Assembly (NCBI RefSeq): GCF_009497655.1
Contig: NZ_CP023317.1
Span: 2,385,501-2,449,500 of the forward strand
Length of the DNA: 64,000 nt
Direction of reading: 5' to 3'
DNA from: Priestia megaterium
GTDB lineage: Bacteria > Bacillota > Bacilli > Bacillales > Bacillaceae_H
Of the stretch, positions 33,129 through 40,535 are shown in pieces. The notes under the pieces were generated by a model. That model was not told the DNA's origin. It ran no database searches and was given only the letters and a program-made list of their open reading frames with translations. Position numbers and translations under genes: made by a program. Position 1 is the first letter of the stretch. Every line of letters begins with the position of its first letter.

Positions 33129-33893
33129 CTACTTTAATGAACCTTGATAACCGAGTTTTTCAGAAATTAGGCTCGCCGCTTCTGTTACTTTTTGAATAAT
33201 GAACGGCAGTCTGTCTCCTTGAAATCTCGCTTCAATTCCCGCTACGCTAATGCCTGCAACCACTTCATTTTGATGATTTACAATCGGCGCGCTCACGGAT
33301 GTTGTAAAGTTTTCTAATTCAGAGGTGCTAATGGTATACCCTTTTTCTTTTGCTTCTTTTAATACATTTCTTAGTTTCTTTTGATCTGTAATGGTTCCAA
33401 TACCTATTGGAGTTAGCTCCGTTTGAGTAATATATGCCTCTTGTTCTTTTTCGGGTAAATGCGCCAAAATAATGCGTGAACAAGCTCCTGCATAAAGAGG
33501 TGAACGCCTTCCAATTGATGTATAGAGACGCACGGGATGAAGCGTATCTACTTTTTCAATATACATGGCTTGATCCCCATCTCGTACAATTAGATTAACC
33601 GCTTCTTCTACTTCGTCTCGGAGCGTTTCCATTACGGGCTTTGCGATATTTCTAATATCTAAGCGATTAGCCACTAGCTGACCAAATTGCAAGAATAAAA
33701 GTCCTAGCGAATAGTATCCTTGCGCGTCTTTTGTTAAAAATCCCATCTCTTCAAGCGAACCAACCATTCGATGCAAAGAAGTTTTCGGAACGCCTGAATA
33801 TTCCATCATTTCTGTGAAGGTCAGCTTAGGGTGGTTGATAAAAAGCGTGAGAATCTGCATGGATTTAACGACTGTTTTATTGTTAGCTTGCAT
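33129..33893 (-). CDS. IclR-family regulator of the pxp operon (KipR-like)
   Basis: 254 residues. The winged-helix N-terminus is at about residues 8-70 (FTEMMEYSGVPKTSLHRMVGSLEEMGFL) and the effector-binding GAF-like domain at about 75-250 (RRSPLYAGACSRIILAHLP, ISTSELENFTTSVSAPI). In B. subtilis the kipR gene closes the ycsF-kipI-kipA operon; here an IclR gene occupies the same end but behind a terminator (33984-34023), so it has its own promoter. Control of the pxp genes is inferred from synteny and the palindrome at 40628. Confidence 0.85.
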   Translation of the reverse strand: MQANNKTVVKSMQILTLFINHPKLTFTEMMEYSGVPKTSLHRMVGSLEEMGFLTKDAQGYYSLGLLFLQFGQLVANRLDIRNIAKPVMETLRDEVEEAVNLIVRDGDQAMYIEKVDTLHPVRLYTSIGRRSPLYAGACSRIILAHLPEKEQEAYITQTELTPIGIGTITDQKKLRNVLKEAKEKGYTISTSELENFTTSVSAPIVNHQNEVVAGISVAGIEARFQGDRLPFIIQKVTEAASLISEKLGYQGSLK

Positions 33894-34024: not shown

Positions 34025-35389
34025 TTACACCGTTTCTAGTTCTTTAATTGAAATAGGGTTACTTTCTAGAAATTTGGTTGTAAAATCCCCTTCTTTAAAA
34101 GAAGGATGATTCAGTAATTCTAAATGAAAAGGAATAGTTGTGTGAATACCTATAATGATAAATTCTTCGAGCGCACGTTTCATTCGTTGAATCGCTTCAT
34201 TTCGGTCTTTCCCTGTTACAATTAATTTCGCCACCATTGAATCATAAAATGGAGAAATTTCATAGCCTGGGTAAACCGCGCTGTCTACACGAACGCCGTA
34301 GCCGCCAGGAGGTAAATACATCTCGACTTTTCCAGGAGAAGGCATAAAGTTTTTAGCCGGATTTTCTGCGTTGATTCGACATTCAATTGCCCATCCCTTT
34401 AACTGAACATCCCGCTGAGCAAATGATAGCGGGTAGCCTGCTGCTACTGAAATTTGTTCTTTAATTAAGTCGATATTTGTTACAAGTTCTGTAACAGGGT
34501 GTTCAACTTGAATCCGTGTGTTCATTTCCATAAAGTAAAAATGTCCGTGTTTATCTAACAGAAACTCCACCGTTCCCACACCTGTATAATCGACTGCTTT
34601 AGCTGCCGAGACTGCCGCCTTGCCCATTTTCGCACGAAGATTTTCATCTACTGCAGGAGACGGAGCTTCTTCTACTAATTTTTGATGACGCCGCTGAATC
34701 GAACAATCTCGTTCACCTAAATGAACTACATTACCTTCTTCATCAGCAATAATTTGAATTTCGATATGTTTCGGTTCTTCTAAATATTTTTCAAGGTATA
34801 CTCCGCCGTTTCCAAAAGCTGTTTCTGCTTCGTGCTGAGCTTGACGAATCGCTTTTTCTAGCTCCTCTTCGCTATGAGCTAGCCGCATTCCTTTTCCGCC
34901 GCCGCCCGCTGTAGCTTTTACAATGATTGGATAGCCTATTTCTCTTGCTACTGGAATAGCGGTGCTGCTATCTTCAATCAGTCCTTCCGTGCCAGGTACA
35001 ATAGGCACACCGGCTTGTTTCATTGTTTCTCTTGCTACAGCTTTTGCTCCCATTTTACGGATGGCTTCTGCTTTTGGACCAATAAAGGTAATATCATAGG
35101 ATTCACACATCTCAGCAAAATCAGCATTTTCAGCTAAAAATCCGTAGCCGGGATGAACAGCGTCTGCCTTGGTTACTTGTGCTACGGTAAGCAAATTCCG
35201 AATATTTAAGTAGCTTTCTTTAGAAGACGTTTTACCAATACAAAATGACTCATCTGCTAGCTTTACGTGAAGTGCATCTTTGTCTGCTTCTGAATACACG
35301 GCCACGGTTGAAATTCCCATCTCTTTACAAGCTCGAATGATACGAACTGCAATCTCACCGCGGTTTGCGATTAACACTTTTTTGAACAT
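34025..35389 (-). CDS. accC: Biotin carboxylase (AccC paralogue) in the pxp operon
   Basis: 454 residues from the ATG at 35389 (AGGAGGAGCCACT upstream). The ATP-grasp motifs are complete: [42 protein letters not shown] (nucleotide-binding glycine loop), the [15 protein letters not shown] motif, [15 protein letters not shown] and a C-terminal biotin carboxylase domain. It carboxylates biotin on a carrier protein using bicarbonate and ATP. Bacilli have a separate accBC for fatty-acid synthesis, so this copy inside the oxoproline operon presumably serves a different carboxyltransferase; PxpB/PxpC are the candidates. Confidence 0.9.
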
Positions 35390-35417
35390 AGTGGCTCCTC
35401 CTGACAATATGTATACT

Positions 35418-35879
35418 TTAATATGATTTTACGGTAAATAGAGGCTGTCCAAACTCAACAACATCTCCGTCTTTCACAAGAATTTCAAGCACTTCTCCTT
35501 CCATTCCTGCATCTACTTCGTTAAACAGCTTCATCGCTTCAATTACACATACAACATCTTTACGTTCAATAGTTTGTCCTACTTGAACAAACGGATCAGC
35601 GTCTGTTTCTGGCTTGGCGTAAAAGGTTCCAACCATTGGTGATAAGATTTGTTTTTCATTATTCTCTGTTGCGTTTACAGACATAGAATCTTGAGGCGTT
35701 TGCTCAGCAACAGCGGCTTTTACTTCCTCTGTTTTTACTTCTGTAACAGCTGTGTCTTCTAAAGGAATTCCCGCTTTATCAATGACAACTTTTGTTCCTT
35801 CATGTTCAATATGGAGCTTTTGAATACCAGATTCATTCATTAATGAAACAACTTCTTGCAATTCACGTACGTTTATCAT
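35418..35879 (-). CDS. accB: Biotin carboxyl carrier protein (AccB paralogue)
   Basis: 153 residues. An N-terminal helix ([26 protein letters not shown]) is followed by a linker rich in Thr, Ala and Glu (about 45-75). The biotinyl domain (about 80-153) has the biotinylation site EAMKLFNEV, with Lys117 in the conserved MK. It carries the carboxyl group from AccC to a carboxyltransferase. It is the usual AccB length and lies between pxpC and accC with 22-28-base gaps, so one transcript is likely. Confidence 0.9.
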
Positions 35880-35901
35880 TTCTTGTCACTCCCGTTTTAT
35901 G

Positions 35902-36897
35902 TTATTTAGTTGACGCAAGGTTAATAGCAATCTTCAATTCTTGAAGCAGCTGTTCTTTTTCTAAATAGATTTTTTCTGCTTCATGAAGCGAAATGTGAGA
36001 AAAATAGATGGATTCTCCGGGCTTTACTTGAGCTAAAAGCGGTAAATCCGCTGTGATGACTTGAGCGATTTTAGGATATCCTCCTGTAGTTTGACGGTCT
36101 GCTAACAGGATAATGGGATTTCCATCTGGCGGGACTTGAACAGAACCTTGTGAGACGGCTTCAGACAATAGCTCTTTTTTTTCTTGAAGCTGAAGAGAAG
36201 GTCCATCCATTCGATAACCCATTCGATCTGATTGATTTGATACTTTAAAGGGTTCTTGAGTAAAATGACTTTGGCTTTCAGCTGTAAATAAATCAAATTG
36301 ACCCCCATTTATAACACGGACACTTGGTTTCTTTGTAAAATGGACAAATTCTTTATAATTTACGGACCATGAAGAAGTATATACTCCGTTTATCAGTTCA
36401 TTGGAAAGAAAAGCAGGCTTTGAAGCAGCAGGAACAGATAGAGGTAAAACGTCGTCTGTTTGTAATGCTCTTCCTTTATAGCCACCAATTTCGCCCCTCA
36501 AATACGTGCTTTTACTATTTAACACTTCATTAATAGAAAATCCTCCAGCTACAGATAGATAGGAACGACAACCAGTTCTACAAGGCCCAAATGATAAAGT
36601 GCCTCCTTTTGGAATAAATAAAGGTTTCCACATCGGGACTGGCTTTCCGTTGACCGAAGGAGTTAAATCTCCACCTGTGATCGCTACTAAACAATCACTT
36701 TCTATTTCAAGGGTAGGCCCCATTAGCGTAACTTCAAGTCCCGCTTCTTTTTCATCGTTACCAACTAGTAAATTAGCAATTCGGAGAGAATAAGAATCCA
36801 TTGCACCGCTTACAATTACACCGTGCTGCTGAAATCCTTTTCTTCCTAAATCTTGAATGCTTGTTAATAACCCGGCTTTACTAACTCTTATACTCAT
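35902..36897 (-). CDS. pxpC: 5-oxoprolinase subunit C (KipA family)
   Basis: 331 residues of the KipA/allophanate-hydrolase-subunit-2 (AHS2) family. The family motifs are KAGLLTSIQDLGRKGFQQHGV (N-terminus), AITGGDLTPSVNGKPVPMW, SYLSVAGGF, VINGGQFDLF and a C-terminal RQTTGGYPKIAQVI segment. With PxpA and PxpB it forms the ATP-dependent enzyme that opens 5-oxoproline to glutamate. It overlaps pxpB by 4 bases (ATGA), indicating coupled translation. The same domain makes up part of the carboxyltransferase region of urea carboxylase. Confidence 0.92.
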   Translation of the reverse strand: MSIRVSKAGLLTSIQDLGRKGFQQHGVIVSGAMDSYSLRIANLLVGNDEKEAGLEVTLMGPTLEIESDCLVAITGGDLTPSVNGKPVPMWKPLFIPKGGTLSFGPCRTGCRSYLSVAGGFSINEVLNSKSTYLRGEIGGYKGRALQTDDVLPLSVPAASKPAFLSNELINGVYTSSWSVNYKEFVHFTKKPSVRVINGGQFDLFTAESQSHFTQEPFKVSNQSDRMGYRMDGPSLQLQEKKELLSEAVSQGSVQVPPDGNPIILLADRQTTGGYPKIAQVITADLPLLAQVKPGESIYFSHISLHEAEKIYLEKEQLLQELKIAINLASTK

Positions 36898-37649
36898 TTT
36901 TCTCCCTCCTTTGCCTGTAGTTCTTGATACTCTTCTTTAGAGATAGGCTCAAATTTTACAATATCTCCAGCCTGCAGCAAACTTGGAGGATTTTGCTCCG
37001 GCAAAAACAGTTTAATCGGCGTTTGACCAATTAGCTGCCATCCTCCGGGAGTGGAAATAGGATACACTCCTGTTTGCATTCCTGCAATACCAACCGAACC
37101 TGCAGGAATAGAGGTGCGAGGAGACGAGCGGCGAGGCGTAGCAATTTTTTCAGATAGTCCTCCGAGAAACGGAAATCCAGGAGCAAATCCAATCATGTAC
37201 GCTAAGTATTCGCCTTCAGAATGAATACTTATTACCTCTTCAGGTGTTAAGTTATGGTGACGAGCGACATATTCAAGATCAGGTCCATACTCTCCTCCGT
37301 AGCAAACTGGAATGGAAACCGTACGATGGTCTAACTCTTTTTCTGTCTGTTCGTTCTCTAATTTACTTTGAAGGATAGAAGACACTACTTCAAAAGGAGA
37401 CACAAATTCTTTTTTCTCCTTCTTTTTCACGGCTGCTACCACTTCAAGAGGGTTATAAAAGATCGTAAGGTTCGTAAATGCCGGCACGCATTCAATAAAC
37501 CCAGGGAAAGGATTTAATTCTATTGAATCTTTACACGTTTTGATTTGTTTATGAATATCGTACTGAATACTATCTCCAAACGTTATAACAAGCGCTGAGT
37601 CGCCAAGCGGAGAAATAACAGCTGGCGCTTTTGTTATGGTTTGATTCAT
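36894..37649 (-). CDS. pxpB: 5-oxoprolinase subunit B (KipI family)
   Basis: 251 residues, KipI/AHS1 family. The features are SPLGDSALVITFGDSI at the N-terminus, CVPAFTNLTIFYNP, a SIPVCYGGEYGPDLEYVA stretch, the conserved YMIGFAPGFPFLGGL core and PRRSSPRTSIPAGSVGIAG. It pairs with PxpC; in B. subtilis KipI was first described as an inhibitor of the sporulation kinase KinA. Which role matters here cannot be read from the sequence. Translation is coupled to pxpC. Confidence 0.92.
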   Translation of the reverse strand: MNQTITKAPAVISPLGDSALVITFGDSIQYDIHKQIKTCKDSIELNPFPGFIECVPAFTNLTIFYNPLEVVAAVKKKEKKEFVSPFEVVSSILQSKLENEQTEKELDHRTVSIPVCYGGEYGPDLEYVARHHNLTPEEVISIHSEGEYLAYMIGFAPGFPFLGGLSEKIATPRRSSPRTSIPAGSVGIAGMQTGVYPISTPGGWQLIGQTPIKLFLPEQNPPSLLQAGDIVKFEPISKEEYQELQAKEGEK

Positions 37650-37666
37650 ATCTACACCTCTTTCTT

Positions 37667-38458
37667 TTATAAAACACCTAGTTTTTCATCTCGAATATCT
37701 GTGATAAACATATGTCCAGGAGCATGTGTAATCATAATAGAAGGTTTTGTTTCCATTGCTACAGCTTGAGGAGTTACGCCACAAGCCCAGAACACGGGAA
37801 CTTCGCCTTCTTTGACGGAAACAGCATCGCCAAAATCCGGAGAGTGAAGGTCTTCAATGCCTATTGCAGCGGGGTTTCCAATGTGAACAGGTCCTCCGTG
37901 CACAGCTGGAAAACGTGAAGTTACTTGCGCTGCCCGCACTACGTCTTGCTGAGGAATTGGGCGCATACTAACGACCGTCGAGCCGTGGAATATTCCCGCT
38001 TCAGCGCATGAAATATTTGTTTTATACATAGGAACATTACAGTTTTCTTCAATGTGACGAACAGGTATGCCGTTGTTTAAAAGTGCGTGTTCGAATGTAA
38101 AACTGCAGCCGATGAGAAAAGCTACCATATCTTCTGTCCAATAGTCTGTGATATCGGTTACTTCTTTTACCAGTTCCCCATTTTCATAGATTCGATACTT
38201 TGGAAGGTCTGTACGAATATCTCCGGACGGAGCCGCAAACTTTGAAACAGGAGATCCAACGTCCGTTACATCTAAAAGAGGACAAGATTTAGGATTACGC
38301 TGACAGAACAATAGAAAGTCAAAGGCTTGTTTCTTTGGTAAAATAGCTAAATTAGCTTGAGCATAGCCGTTTGCCATGCCTGCCGTTGGGTGAATAAGCT
38401 GGTTGTTACGGATTTGCTGACGAAGTTCAGCTGGAGTTAGTTGTGAAAGGTTTGTCAT
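37667..38458 (-). CDS. YcsI-family putative hydro-lyase (DUF1445)
   Basis: 263 residues from the ATG at 38458, which follows GGGAGATAGAAAT. The family core is visible: HPTAGMANGYAQANLAILPK, FLIGCSFTFEHALL, PMYKTNISC, VVSMRPIP and the GDAV...PVFWACGVTPQAV ending (D-glutamate cyclase/hydro-lyase-like fold). B. subtilis ycsI sits at the same place in the operon. The family contains D-glutamate cyclases that make 5-oxo-D-proline, which would fit an operon using 5-oxoproline, but the reaction is inferred. A GC-rich hairpin precedes its ribosome-binding site. Confidence 0.83.
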   Translation of the reverse strand: MTNLSQLTPAELRQQIRNNQLIHPTAGMANGYAQANLAILPKKQAFDFLLFCQRNPKSCPLLDVTDVGSPVSKFAAPSGDIRTDLPKYRIYENGELVKEVTDITDYWTEDMVAFLIGCSFTFEHALLNNGIPVRHIEENCNVPMYKTNISCAEAGIFHGSTVVSMRPIPQQDVVRAAQVTSRFPAVHGGPVHIGNPAAIGIEDLHSPDFGDAVSVKEGEVPVFWACGVTPQAVAMETKPSIMITHAPGHMFITDIRDEKLGVL

Positions 38459-38477
38459 ATTTCTATCTCCCATCATT

Positions 38478-38502
38478 GCCCGCACGCAACTTACGTGCGG
38501 GC
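38478..38502 (-). other. GC-rich hairpin between the transporter and YcsI genes
   Basis: GCCCGCACG/CGTGCGGGC is a perfect 9-bp stem with a 7-base loop. It has no U-tract, lies inside an operon and sits just before the YcsI ribosome-binding site, so it looks like an RNA-processing or stability element rather than a terminator. Confidence 0.6.
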
Positions 38503-38510
38503 ACCTTGTT

Positions 38511-39749
38511 TTATTTAAATAATTGAGGAAGTTGATCCATTAACGTATAGCCACCCATTAAAGCCATCACAATAACGACAAGTACACCAGAAATGGTAAG
38601 CCATAAAGGATGCTTATATTCGCCAACGATACTTTTTTTGTACGCAGCAACTAGTAATGTTCCAAGGGCGATCGGAAGAATTAATCCATTAATTGCTCCA
38701 ACTAACAGAAGAACTTTTACAGGTTTTCCAATTAAGACAAACGACAGAGTTGAAATAATAATAAATCCAATAATAATCCAGTTTGAGTTTTTATTAAGTT
38801 TTTCACTAAACGTTTGAATAAACGAAACGGATGTATAAGCAGCTCCCACTACAGACGTAATAGCGGCAGACCACATGACAATACCAAAGATTTTATAACC
38901 GACGTTTCCTGCTGCGAGCTGAAACACGGATGCTGGAGGATTGGCCGGATCAATTTGTAACCCTTTAGATACAACGCCAAGTACAGCTAAAAACAAAGCG
39001 ATTCGCATAACGGAAGTGATAAGAATTCCTGTTACAGAACTTTTAGTTACTTGAGGTAAAGAATCGATGCCTTTTACCCCGGCATCTAAAAGACGATGTC
39101 CGCCTGCAAAGGTAATATAACCACCAACAGTACCTCCAACAAGCGTAACGATCGCAATGATGTCGATTTGATCAGGTTTAAAAGATTTCACTACAGCTTC
39201 TCCAACGGGAGGTGAAGTAGTAGCTGCTACATATAGCATTAGCCCAATCATGACAAAACCTGCAATTTGCGTGAAGCGATCCATTGCTTTTCCAGCTTCT
39301 TTTACAACGAAGATTAGCACGGCAATAACTGCACTAATTGCAGCTCCGGCTGTTGGAGAAATACCTGTAATCGCATTTAATCCAAGACCGGCACCGGCAA
39401 TATTTCCAATATTAAATGCAAGTCCTCCAATTACAATTAAAATAGCGAGCACGTATCCTAATCCGGGAAATACCATATTGGCGATTTCTTGTCCGCGTTT
39501 TTCAGAAACGGCAATAATCCTCCATACGTTGGTTTGAGCAAAGATATCAAGAATAATTGAAATTAAAATAACGAATCCAAAGCTTGCGGCTAAATTTTGT
39601 GTAAATACGGTAGTTTGAGTTAAAAAGCCTGGTCCAATAGCCGATGTGGCCATTAAAAAAGCGGCTCCAAGCATTAACGTCCAGTTTACTTTAGGTGCAG
39701 CCGAAAGCTTTTGCTGAGGTGTTGATTTTTTTATTGGCTCCAATATCAT
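38511..39749 (-). CDS. NRAMP-family transporter, YcsG type
   Basis: 412 residues with about eleven membrane helices. It belongs to the divalent-metal/NRAMP-like superfamily: the first helix has SAIGPGFLTQT, helix 6 has a GGYITFAGGHRLLD motif, where classical NRAMPs have the MPH metal motif. That replacement suggests a different substrate. As part of the ycsF operon in bacilli, uptake of 5-oxoproline or a related compound is a reasonable guess. It lies 24 bases after pxpA. Confidence 0.82.
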   Translation of the reverse strand: MILEPIKKSTPQQKLSAAPKVNWTLMLGAAFLMATSAIGPGFLTQTTVFTQNLAASFGFVILISIILDIFAQTNVWRIIAVSEKRGQEIANMVFPGLGYVLAILIVIGGLAFNIGNIAGAGLGLNAITGISPTAGAAISAVIAVLIFVVKEAGKAMDRFTQIAGFVMIGLMLYVAATTSPPVGEAVVKSFKPDQIDIIAIVTLVGGTVGGYITFAGGHRLLDAGVKGIDSLPQVTKSSVTGILITSVMRIALFLAVLGVVSKGLQIDPANPPASVFQLAAGNVGYKIFGIVMWSAAITSVVGAAYTSVSFIQTFSEKLNKNSNWIIIGFIIISTLSFVLIGKPVKVLLLVGAINGLILPIALGTLLVAAYKKSIVGEYKHPLWLTISGVLVVIVMALMGGYTLMDQLPQLFK

Positions 39750-39773
39750 CTTCCTCCTGATTGTATGTAGTTT

Positions 39774-40535
39774 TTATTGTGAAATAGCCTTAACTACCAC
39801 TTCTGATGCTTGTAAAGAACGGTTGACATGACGAGCAAATTCAAGTGCGTGAGCCCCGTCTCCGTGAATACAAATCGTGTCTGCCTGCAATTCTACATCC
39901 TTGCCTTGCTGAGATTTGACTTTCCCTTCTTTCACCATTGTAATAACTTGAGAAACAGCTTCGTCGTCATTTTCAATTAAAGCATTTGGTTCTGTACGAG
40001 GCGTAAGAGAACCGTCTAACTGATAGGTACGGTCTGCAAATACTTCGTTGGCCGTTTTCAAACCAATTCTGTTACCTGCTTGAATCAGCTCACTTCCAGA
40101 TAATCCAAACAAAATCAGCTCAGGATTTACGTTGTAAACAGCTTTTGCTATTGCTTCAGACAACGCTTTATTTTTAGCAGCCATGTTATATAGTGCACCG
40201 TGAGGTTTTACATGCTGCATTGATAACCCTTCTGCTTGCAAAAAACCGTTTAATGCACCAATTTGATAGACTACGATATCGTAGGCTTCCTGAGGTGAAA
40301 TATTGATGTTTCTGCGTCCGAAACCGATAAGGTCCTGTAGACCAGGATGAGCACCAATTTGCACTTTTTTTTCAGCGGCCAATTTTACCGTTTTTCTCAT
40401 GACGCTTGGATCCCCTGCATGAAATCCACAGGCTACGTTTACAGACGTCACGTGTTCTAAAATGGCTTCATCATTGCCAATGCGATAAGCACCAAAGCTT
40501 TCCCCTAAATCACAGTTTAAATCCACTCTACTCAA
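39774..40535 (-). CDS. pxpA: 5-oxoprolinase subunit A (LamB/YcsF family)
   Basis: 253 residues from a TTG at 40535, nine bases after AAGGGGG; ATG codons upstream give an overlong protein for this ~250-residue family. Conserved motifs are [19 protein letters not shown] at the N-terminus, [47 protein letters not shown] and CIHGDGAHA. It completes the PxpABC 5-oxoprolinase that recycles the cyclised glutamate lost from glutamine and peptides. It is first in the operon, with an IclR-style palindrome upstream. Confidence 0.92.

Follow-up and report, generated by a model that had tools for sequence, protein, structure and literature searches.

An oxoprolinase operon of Priestia megaterium carries its own biotin carboxylase and carrier genes and may encode a split biotin-dependent enzyme

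Results

Genes of the operon

We analyzed a stretch of 64,000 nucleotides from the genome of Priestia megaterium (positions 2385501-2449500 of contig NZ_CP023317.1, here C1; assembly GCF_009497655.1), referred to below as the window, and focused on an operon in which genes for the subunits of 5-oxoprolinase are joined by genes for a biotin carboxylase (BC) and a biotin carboxyl carrier protein (BCCP). The genes are on the minus strand in one closely spaced row, pxpA-pxpT-ycsI-pxpB-pxpC-accB-accC, followed by the gene for an IclR-family regulator. The set expected of a PxpABC 5-oxoprolinase, pxpA, pxpB and pxpC, is all present. The features are as follows (CT, carboxyltransferase; L, G and f numbers below are our labels for loci, genomes and groups).

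39774..40535, minus strand: pxpA, 5-oxoprolinase subunit A, LamB/YcsF family (NF003813 over cut-off; PF03746)
38511..39749, minus strand: pxpT/ycsG/mntG-like gene for an NRAMP-family transporter (PF01566)
37667..38485, minus strand: ycsI, putative function (PF07286, D-Glu_cyclase; NCBI "putative hydro-lyase")
36894..37649, minus strand: pxpB/kipI, CT subdomains C and D (TIGR00370 over cut-off)
35902..36897, minus strand: pxpC/kipA, CT subdomains A and B (TIGR00724 over cut-off; clade II of the PxpC tree)
35418..35879, minus strand: accB paralogue, BCCP (TIGR00531 over cut-off; motif IEAMKLFN)
34025..35389, minus strand: accC paralogue, BC (TIGR00514 over cut-off)
33129..33893, minus strand: kipR-like gene for an IclR-family regulator (PF01614, PF09339)

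The intergenic gaps are 24 bases (pxpA-pxpT), 25 (pxpT-ycsI), 17 (ycsI-pxpB), 22 (pxpC-accB) and 131 (accC-kipR), and pxpB and pxpC overlap by 4 bases. The pxpA frame extends to 40601 in the list of open reading frames, and the start of accC is most likely the ATG at 35389, behind AGGAGG, rather than the TTG of that list. A consensus scan of the coding strand found no terminator-like site inside the gene row. At the pxpT-ycsI junction, a GC-rich inverted repeat of 10 pairs (38477-38503) overlaps the listed start of ycsI and is terminator-like on the opposite strand only. The operon has neither accA nor accD, and no gene for allophanate hydrolase.

The genes named in a first-pass annotation of this DNA lie at the positions it gave and agreed with the family models for PxpA, PxpB, PxpC, AccB and AccC, and its family calls for the transporter and YcsI were matched by PF01566 and PF07286. 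It had also stated that B. subtilis has nothing between pxpC and the regulator, and in the B. subtilis-group locus (L094) pxpC is indeed followed directly by kipR. Sequence-to-structure matches and family models bore out its description of PxpB and PxpC as the two halves of the CT fold of urea carboxylase. The transporter scored 23 against the MntH model, far below the cut-off of 430; in the available texts the pxpT homologue is named an importer of 5-oxoproline or of Mn, depending on the paper.

An additional accBC set and a second pxp operon in the same genome

The accBC genes of the window are an extra set, because the genome has a housekeeping-type accBC elsewhere. The first-pass annotation had asked whether a second accBC exists; it does, with neighbours that by eye resemble sporulation and nusB genes, and the idea that the genome depends on the window accBC as its sole set is thereby ruled out. 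AccB and AccC of the window are paralogues of acetyl-CoA carboxylase (ACC) subunits: AccB is 36% identical to the housekeeping AccB, and AccC shares 68% identity with its housekeeping-type counterpart and approximately 46% with the two others compared. AccB retains the biotinylation lysine in the motif IEAMKLFN and has an insert that we take to be of the thumb-like kind. AccC retains all catalytic residues checked against E. coli AccC, with what we take to be the residue list of the E. coli enzyme.

The source genome (5.24 Mb) has five BC N-domains, the window copy included. Besides the housekeeping-type copy, the others are found in a probable acyl-CoA carboxylase, in a frame of pyruvate-carboxylase size and in a urea carboxylase of 1203 residues, which is encoded next to a probable allophanate hydrolase (L013:2909-8283; the hydrolase was named by eye). 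There is, in addition, a second complete row, pxpB-pxpC-pxpA-pxpT, that lacks accBC (L012:7696-11370; C1 at approximately 947.7-951.4 kb) and encodes proteins 50-69% identical to those of the window. The genome therefore offers its own control. The urea carboxylase and probable allophanate hydrolase genes lie approximately 8-10 kb beyond this second pxp operon.

We propose that the window operon may encode one split biotin-dependent enzyme, together with genes for uptake and supply. AccC would carboxylate biotin on AccB, spending ATP. PxpB and PxpC, a urea-carboxylase-type CT pair that would form a complex with AccB and AccC in P. megaterium, would move the carboxyl group onto 5-oxoproline, at its lactam, or onto a closely related amide. 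The activated ring would then be hydrolysed by PxpA, and the resulting carbamate would lose CO2 to give glutamate. Overall, 5-oxoproline and ATP would be turned into glutamate, ADP and Pi, just as in the published reaction, and a dependence on biotin could therefore have gone unseen, for example with partly purified enzyme. In our estimate, a working partnership of AccBC with PxpBC falls just short of an even bet, and carboxylation of 5-oxoproline itself is rather unlikely.

Biotin carboxylases beside pxpBC come from several lineages

BCs encoded beside pxp genes were not one clade, indicating that they were recruited repeatedly. In a BC tree of 71 rows, keeping the 32 pxp-linked rows in one clade cost 523 log units even in the best such topology (p-AU 1.8e-80). 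The linkage label needed nine changes, six of them forced by starred branches. These changes may be gains or losses, some placements are on long branches (L193, L197), and the haloarchaeal BC was counted as linked though it is on the other strand. An earlier tree of 61 rows, 26 of them linked, needed six changes, four of them forced (p-AU 5e-35). Near-copies of linked rows (L204, L208) were left out of the trees.

The linked lineages are a Bacillota AccC paralogue (17 rows, the window included), a Staphylococcaceae-like lineage (name guessed), one from a Lactiplantibacillus plantarum plasmid, the Bacilli groups f96/f111, two rhizobial types, a haloarchaeon and Acinetobacter. The window lineage was placed next to the housekeeping accC of Bacillus, and the remaining linked lineages elsewhere in the tree. 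Fourteen core residues were kept in 32/32 linked BCs and in 39/39 others, which shows that the linked copies are intact rather than that they have a special role. The MK motif was present in 30/30 linked loci, as read from the best BCCP match, with E(A/V)MK in 28 and ETMK or ESMK in two. We read the pattern as a likely convergent coupling of pxpBC to whatever BC was at hand, and the repeated gain of BC subunits by related operons suggests that the window enzyme may run on biotin.

The linkage recurs in the family more often than chance would explain and is uncommon across the phylum as a whole. Within the family, pxpC adjoins accBC in 9 of 16 genomes, the P. megaterium genome included, and not in the other seven. 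Within the genus, all seven genomes with a linked copy also hold an unlinked paralogue (broken in one, G010), and 3 of 10 genomes hold the unlinked copy alone. Twelve of 80 named loci were linked; the 80 are the best among at least 589 candidates that were confirmed, and they are biased to near relatives. The linkage was seen in 1/46 pxpC-bearing genomes of the Bacillota phylum sample, read by eye from coordinates, and in at least 5 of 60 genomes picked by hand at class level out of 186 with pxpC (three from coordinates among the matches listed, two from fetched sequence). Sixteen plasmid regions were hand-picked to be diverse, out of 50 that were listed from 743 records. Nine of them had a BCCP and a BC by pxpBC, five did not, and two were fused urea carboxylases; the nine linked regions include rhizobia with three gene orders, the L. 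plantarum plasmid and the haloarchaeon. Beyond the Bacillota, the sampling was limited to plasmid records, E. coli and, from the named loci, a few Bacteroidota. We considered YcsI as a marker of linkage and ruled it out, since both linked and unlinked loci contain it.

Several of these loci have unusual arrangements. In the L. plantarum plasmid NZ_CP035145.1 (L155), an 80-kb record, the row pxpB-pxpC-BCCP-accC-ycsI-pxpA-pxpT lies between transposase genes, and the plasmid carries a near-identical BC a second time. In a Natrinema plasmid (L151), pxpB-pxpC-BCCP is followed by pxpA approximately 5 kb on, with the BC gene tail to tail just beyond, on the other strand. A BCCP-like match (29% identity) lies beside pxpB-pxpC-pxpA-pxpT in Clostridium brassicae (L118, at approximately 12.0 kb), with no accC match in that locus. 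In addition to a normal BCCP, the rhizobial clusters carry another BCCP-like gene, which lacks the MK motif (L149:4848-5291, L153:4856-5293, L158:4860-5297 and L159:6952-7359; Pfam was run for L149 and L159 and was weak in L159), possibly encoding a structural pseudo-carrier.

The accBC genes could also be passengers that the cell can do without and whose products do not work with PxpBC. This would fit close relatives that have the same ycsI-pxpB-pxpC-kipR order and no accBC (L020, L023); it fits poorly with linkage to more than one BC lineage, with the intact motifs in the copies read, and with the same position of accBC in 9/16 genomes of the family. We consider a passenger role highly improbable.

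PxpBC homologues occur in one PDB entry with a biotin carboxylase complex

In PDB entry 9yx5, the chains named allophanate hydrolase subunit 2 and subunit 1 match PxpC and PxpB by sequence, in that order. The entry, known here from chain lists and alignments rather than coordinates, also lists the alpha3 subunit of a biotin-dependent acyl-CoA carboxylase and two carboxylase beta chains (example chains labelled D4 and D5). PxpBC homologues are present in one structure with a BC complex, which does not imply that they use that complex. We take the entry to be mycobacterial, from AccA3 and a 3mml relative, and we found no paper citing it in the open-licence literature.

Evidence that PxpABC may act without biotin

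The first-pass annotation had suggested a split biotin-dependent enzyme, and this suggestion is partly supported. The CT fold, the intact extra accBC, the several BC lineages beside pxpBC and 9yx5 speak for it; the findings in this section weigh against it.

The first concerns a key residue of PxpB. Lys1605 of Kluyveromyces lactis urea amidolyase, the K of TKYNP in the printed alignment, is described as the likely general base of CT in the available text of PMC5770610, and the window PxpB has arginine at this position. We aligned 163 PxpB-type sequences, 9 of which were added to the other 154. Lysine occupies this column in 5/5 urea carboxylases, in 7/7 linked PxpBs of a lysine type and in 3/3 second PxpBs of those clusters. 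It is arginine in all 148 other rows, linked or not: 26 linked clade II sequences (the window included), 89 unlinked clade II, 13 from BC-less genomes, 17 unlinked clade I, MumH of Acinetobacter baumannii (see below), and two Staphylococcaceae-like sequences. PxpB of 9yx5 has the same arginine. There are thus two kinds of BC-linked cluster, lysine and arginine, and that of the window is of the arginine kind. Arginine at this position may mark oxoprolinases.

PxpC also failed to distinguish linked from unlinked copies. In a quick tree of PxpC (without L160, which has a very long branch), clade II holds the window, E. coli, the B. subtilis group and mostly Bacilli, and clade I includes urea carboxylase. 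No column fully separated linked from unlinked clade II sequences; the largest difference in frequency was 0.48, at column 135. Columns 30, 74, 242 and 278 from a first screen were dropped as a signature for biotin use, since none separates the two groups; column 242 marks urea carboxylase and the lysine-type copies. In Sporomusa, Pelosinus and Megasphaera (Negativicutes; L069, L071, L097 and L146) there is one PxpBC pair per clade, and the clade II pair is beside accBC.

pxpC also occurs in genomes that lack BC. Nineteen of the 46 pxpC-bearing Bacillota genomes, each listed as at least 95% complete, had no BC. Six of their loci were inspected and all had compact pxp genes, with pxpA, pxpB and pxpC seen in four and pxpB and pxpC in two. 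By eye, we recognised no other ATP-using partner beside pxpABC in these 6 of 19 loci, whose neighbours were not family-searched. If such genomes make the same enzyme, then a biotin-free PxpABC would exist. The 13 PxpC rows from BC-less genomes (6/19 gave no PxpC row) were all in clade I and none in clade II. A search at class level for pxpC without BC found none, all 60 hand-picked genomes having a BC, and this is uninformative because ACC is nearly universal there.

Three further points weigh in the same direction. Sister genomes (G005, G006; L020, L023) have a PxpC 68-69% identical to that of the window in the same ycsI-pxpB-pxpC-kipR order and have no accBC. Co-purified PxpB and PxpC hydrolyse ATP, as cited in the available text of PMC8453981, which fits a kinase. 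Finally, 9yx5 holds acyl-CoA carboxylase subunits as well, contacts of PxpBC are not visible from its chain lists, and PxpBC may be a passenger of that acyl-CoA carboxylase.

These observations bear on the alternative that PxpABC is an ordinary kinase-type, ATP-dependent 5-oxoprolinase that does not use biotin, and that accBC encodes extra ACC subunits that are co-regulated with it, for instance so that fatty acid synthesis follows the supply of nitrogen or carbon. The reported ATP hydrolysis, the occurrence of pxpABC without any BC and the failure of PxpBC residues to split linked from unlinked copies are all consistent with it, as is an AccC that is 68% identical to the housekeeping protein and passes the ACC equivalog. 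Megasphaera (G175) has no free-standing BC other than the linked AccC, which therefore probably serves ACC there. The kinase alternative does not explain why several BC lineages, archaeal and acyl-CoA-carboxylase-like ones included, are beside pxpBC, nor does it explain 9yx5; a further free-standing BC is present in 16 of the 17 linked genomes examined, and the window operon lacks accA and accD. We regard this alternative as unlikely, though a serious contender.

Published systems related to the operon

Niehaus 2017 is said to be the defining paper on PxpABC. The PxpABC systems of B. subtilis, C. glutamicum (pxpTABC) and E. coli are like the window in having pxpA, pxpB, pxpC and the arginine of PxpB and, except in E. 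coli, a transporter; the order in the B. subtilis group, pxpA-T-I-B-C-kipR, is that of the window apart from accBC. They differ in that no accB or accC is beside the pxp genes in the loci and papers compared. The published model has PxpBC phosphorylating the substrate, a role that "is assumed" according to the available part of one text. The contrast drawn in the first-pass annotation with a biotin-free reaction in E. coli is accordingly not settled. An oxoprolinase of Pseudomonas putida was described long ago as an ATP-using component with chains of 64 and 51 kDa and a second component of 82 kDa (cited in the available text of PMC8453981). In mass, the 51-kDa chain is close to AccC and the 82-kDa component to three PxpA chains, which may hint at a biotin enzyme.

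Operons with accBC beside pxp genes are already in print. An operon of six genes in Staphylococcus aureus contains pxpB, pxpC, pxpA, accB and accC and so resembles the window in having the three pxp genes, accB and accC in one operon; in the available text its accBC is assigned to fatty acid synthesis (PMC11315280). The linked BC of Staphylococcaceae-like loci (L258, L260; name guessed) is of a different lineage from that of the window. For L. pentosus, the part of PMC12427679 available reads an additional copy of BCCP and BC as serving lipid synthesis and, separately, reports pxpB and pxpC. Both interpretations are in line with the kinase alternative. Split CT genes of urea carboxylase, side by side and of unknown function, were noted in 2011 (PMC3199775, in the passage available). 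In the literature searched (open-licence papers, mostly listings and passages) we found no proposal of biotin for PxpABC. What we add is the comparative evidence of repeated recruitment of BC.

The mumTLUHC operon of A. baumannii matches the window component for component. It is read as urea carboxylase plus allophanate hydrolase and tied to the use of urea; in mutants mumC was needed and mumH was not (PMC5050338, in the text available). These mutant data do not favour a strict MumC-MumH pair acting on urea. In the A. baumannii record (L254) the order is NRAMP, PxpA, YcsI, a PxpB-PxpC fusion and a BC-BCCP fusion, so that NRAMP, PxpA, YcsI, PxpBC and BC plus BCCP are in one row as in the window; the operon differs in these fusions and in a BC from another lineage. 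By Pfam (L254:2740-6062), the MumH fusion has only CT domains, and MumC has BC and biotinyl domains and no CT. The published labels, allophanate hydrolase for MumH and urea carboxylase for MumC, therefore do not fit.

Urea carboxylase itself (TIGR02712; K. lactis 3va7/5i8i) is like the window in combining BC, BCCP and a CT of the CT_A_B/CT_C_D fold. It is a single chain, whereas the window has four chains, arginine in place of Lys1605, the likely general base, and no allophanate hydrolase partner. The lysine-kind clusters look like relatives of a split urea carboxylase. Three Bacilli loci of groups f96/f111 (L255, L256 and L257) have a lysine-type pxpB-pxpC-accB-accC plus a second lysine-type pxpBC, with pxpA in L256 and L257, and their clusters are likely such relatives.

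These comparisons raise the possibility that the linked operon encodes a carboxylase that depends on biotin and acts on some other amide or on a compound like urea, with 5-oxoproline left to the unlinked operon. The presence of both operons in this genome, and likewise in 7/7 members of the genus with a linked copy, is consistent with such a division, as is the tie of the Acinetobacter counterpart to urea. On the other hand, the window keeps the oxoprolinase set of pxpA, pxpT and ycsI, its PxpB has arginine instead of the lysine of urea carboxylase, and a urea carboxylase and an allophanate hydrolase are already encoded elsewhere in the genome. Scores against the PxpC_5OPro model (cut-off of 500 bits) were similar for the window (279.7), its own unlinked copy (296.6) and the B. 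subtilis-group copy (260.6) and made no distinction among them. The sister locus L020 scored 281.7, and E. coli alone was over the cut-off (591.8). We dropped this model as a test of function because it is too narrow; even the B. subtilis-group copy is under the cut-off. We consider a different substrate for the linked operon improbable.

Discussion

A broader version of the split-enzyme proposal would apply to all of PxpC clade II, which includes E. coli, the B. subtilis group and the window. PxpBC throughout this clade would be a carboxyltransferase and not a kinase, and the ATP of oxoprolinase would be spent by a BC, which most bacteria would borrow from ACC and which operons with accBC would supply themselves. 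None of the clade II rows of PxpC is from a genome known to lack BC, a finding limited by the near-constant presence of ACC in Bacilli and by the fact that BC content was checked for a minority of the named clade II loci. The reported hydrolysis of ATP by co-purified PxpBC counts against it, and we think this broader version is quite unlikely.

PxpBC has the fold of a carboxyltransferase, and its phosphorylation of 5-oxoproline is a stated assumption in one text. The presence of linked and unlinked pxp copies in one genome makes the question of biotin directly testable. If biotin is used, then a widespread salvage reaction would gain a cofactor, and annotations such as "allophanate hydrolase", accBC for "fatty acid synthesis", and those of MumH and MumC would need revision. 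If the broader version were true, then the opening of 5-oxoproline would be a hidden biotin-dependent reaction.

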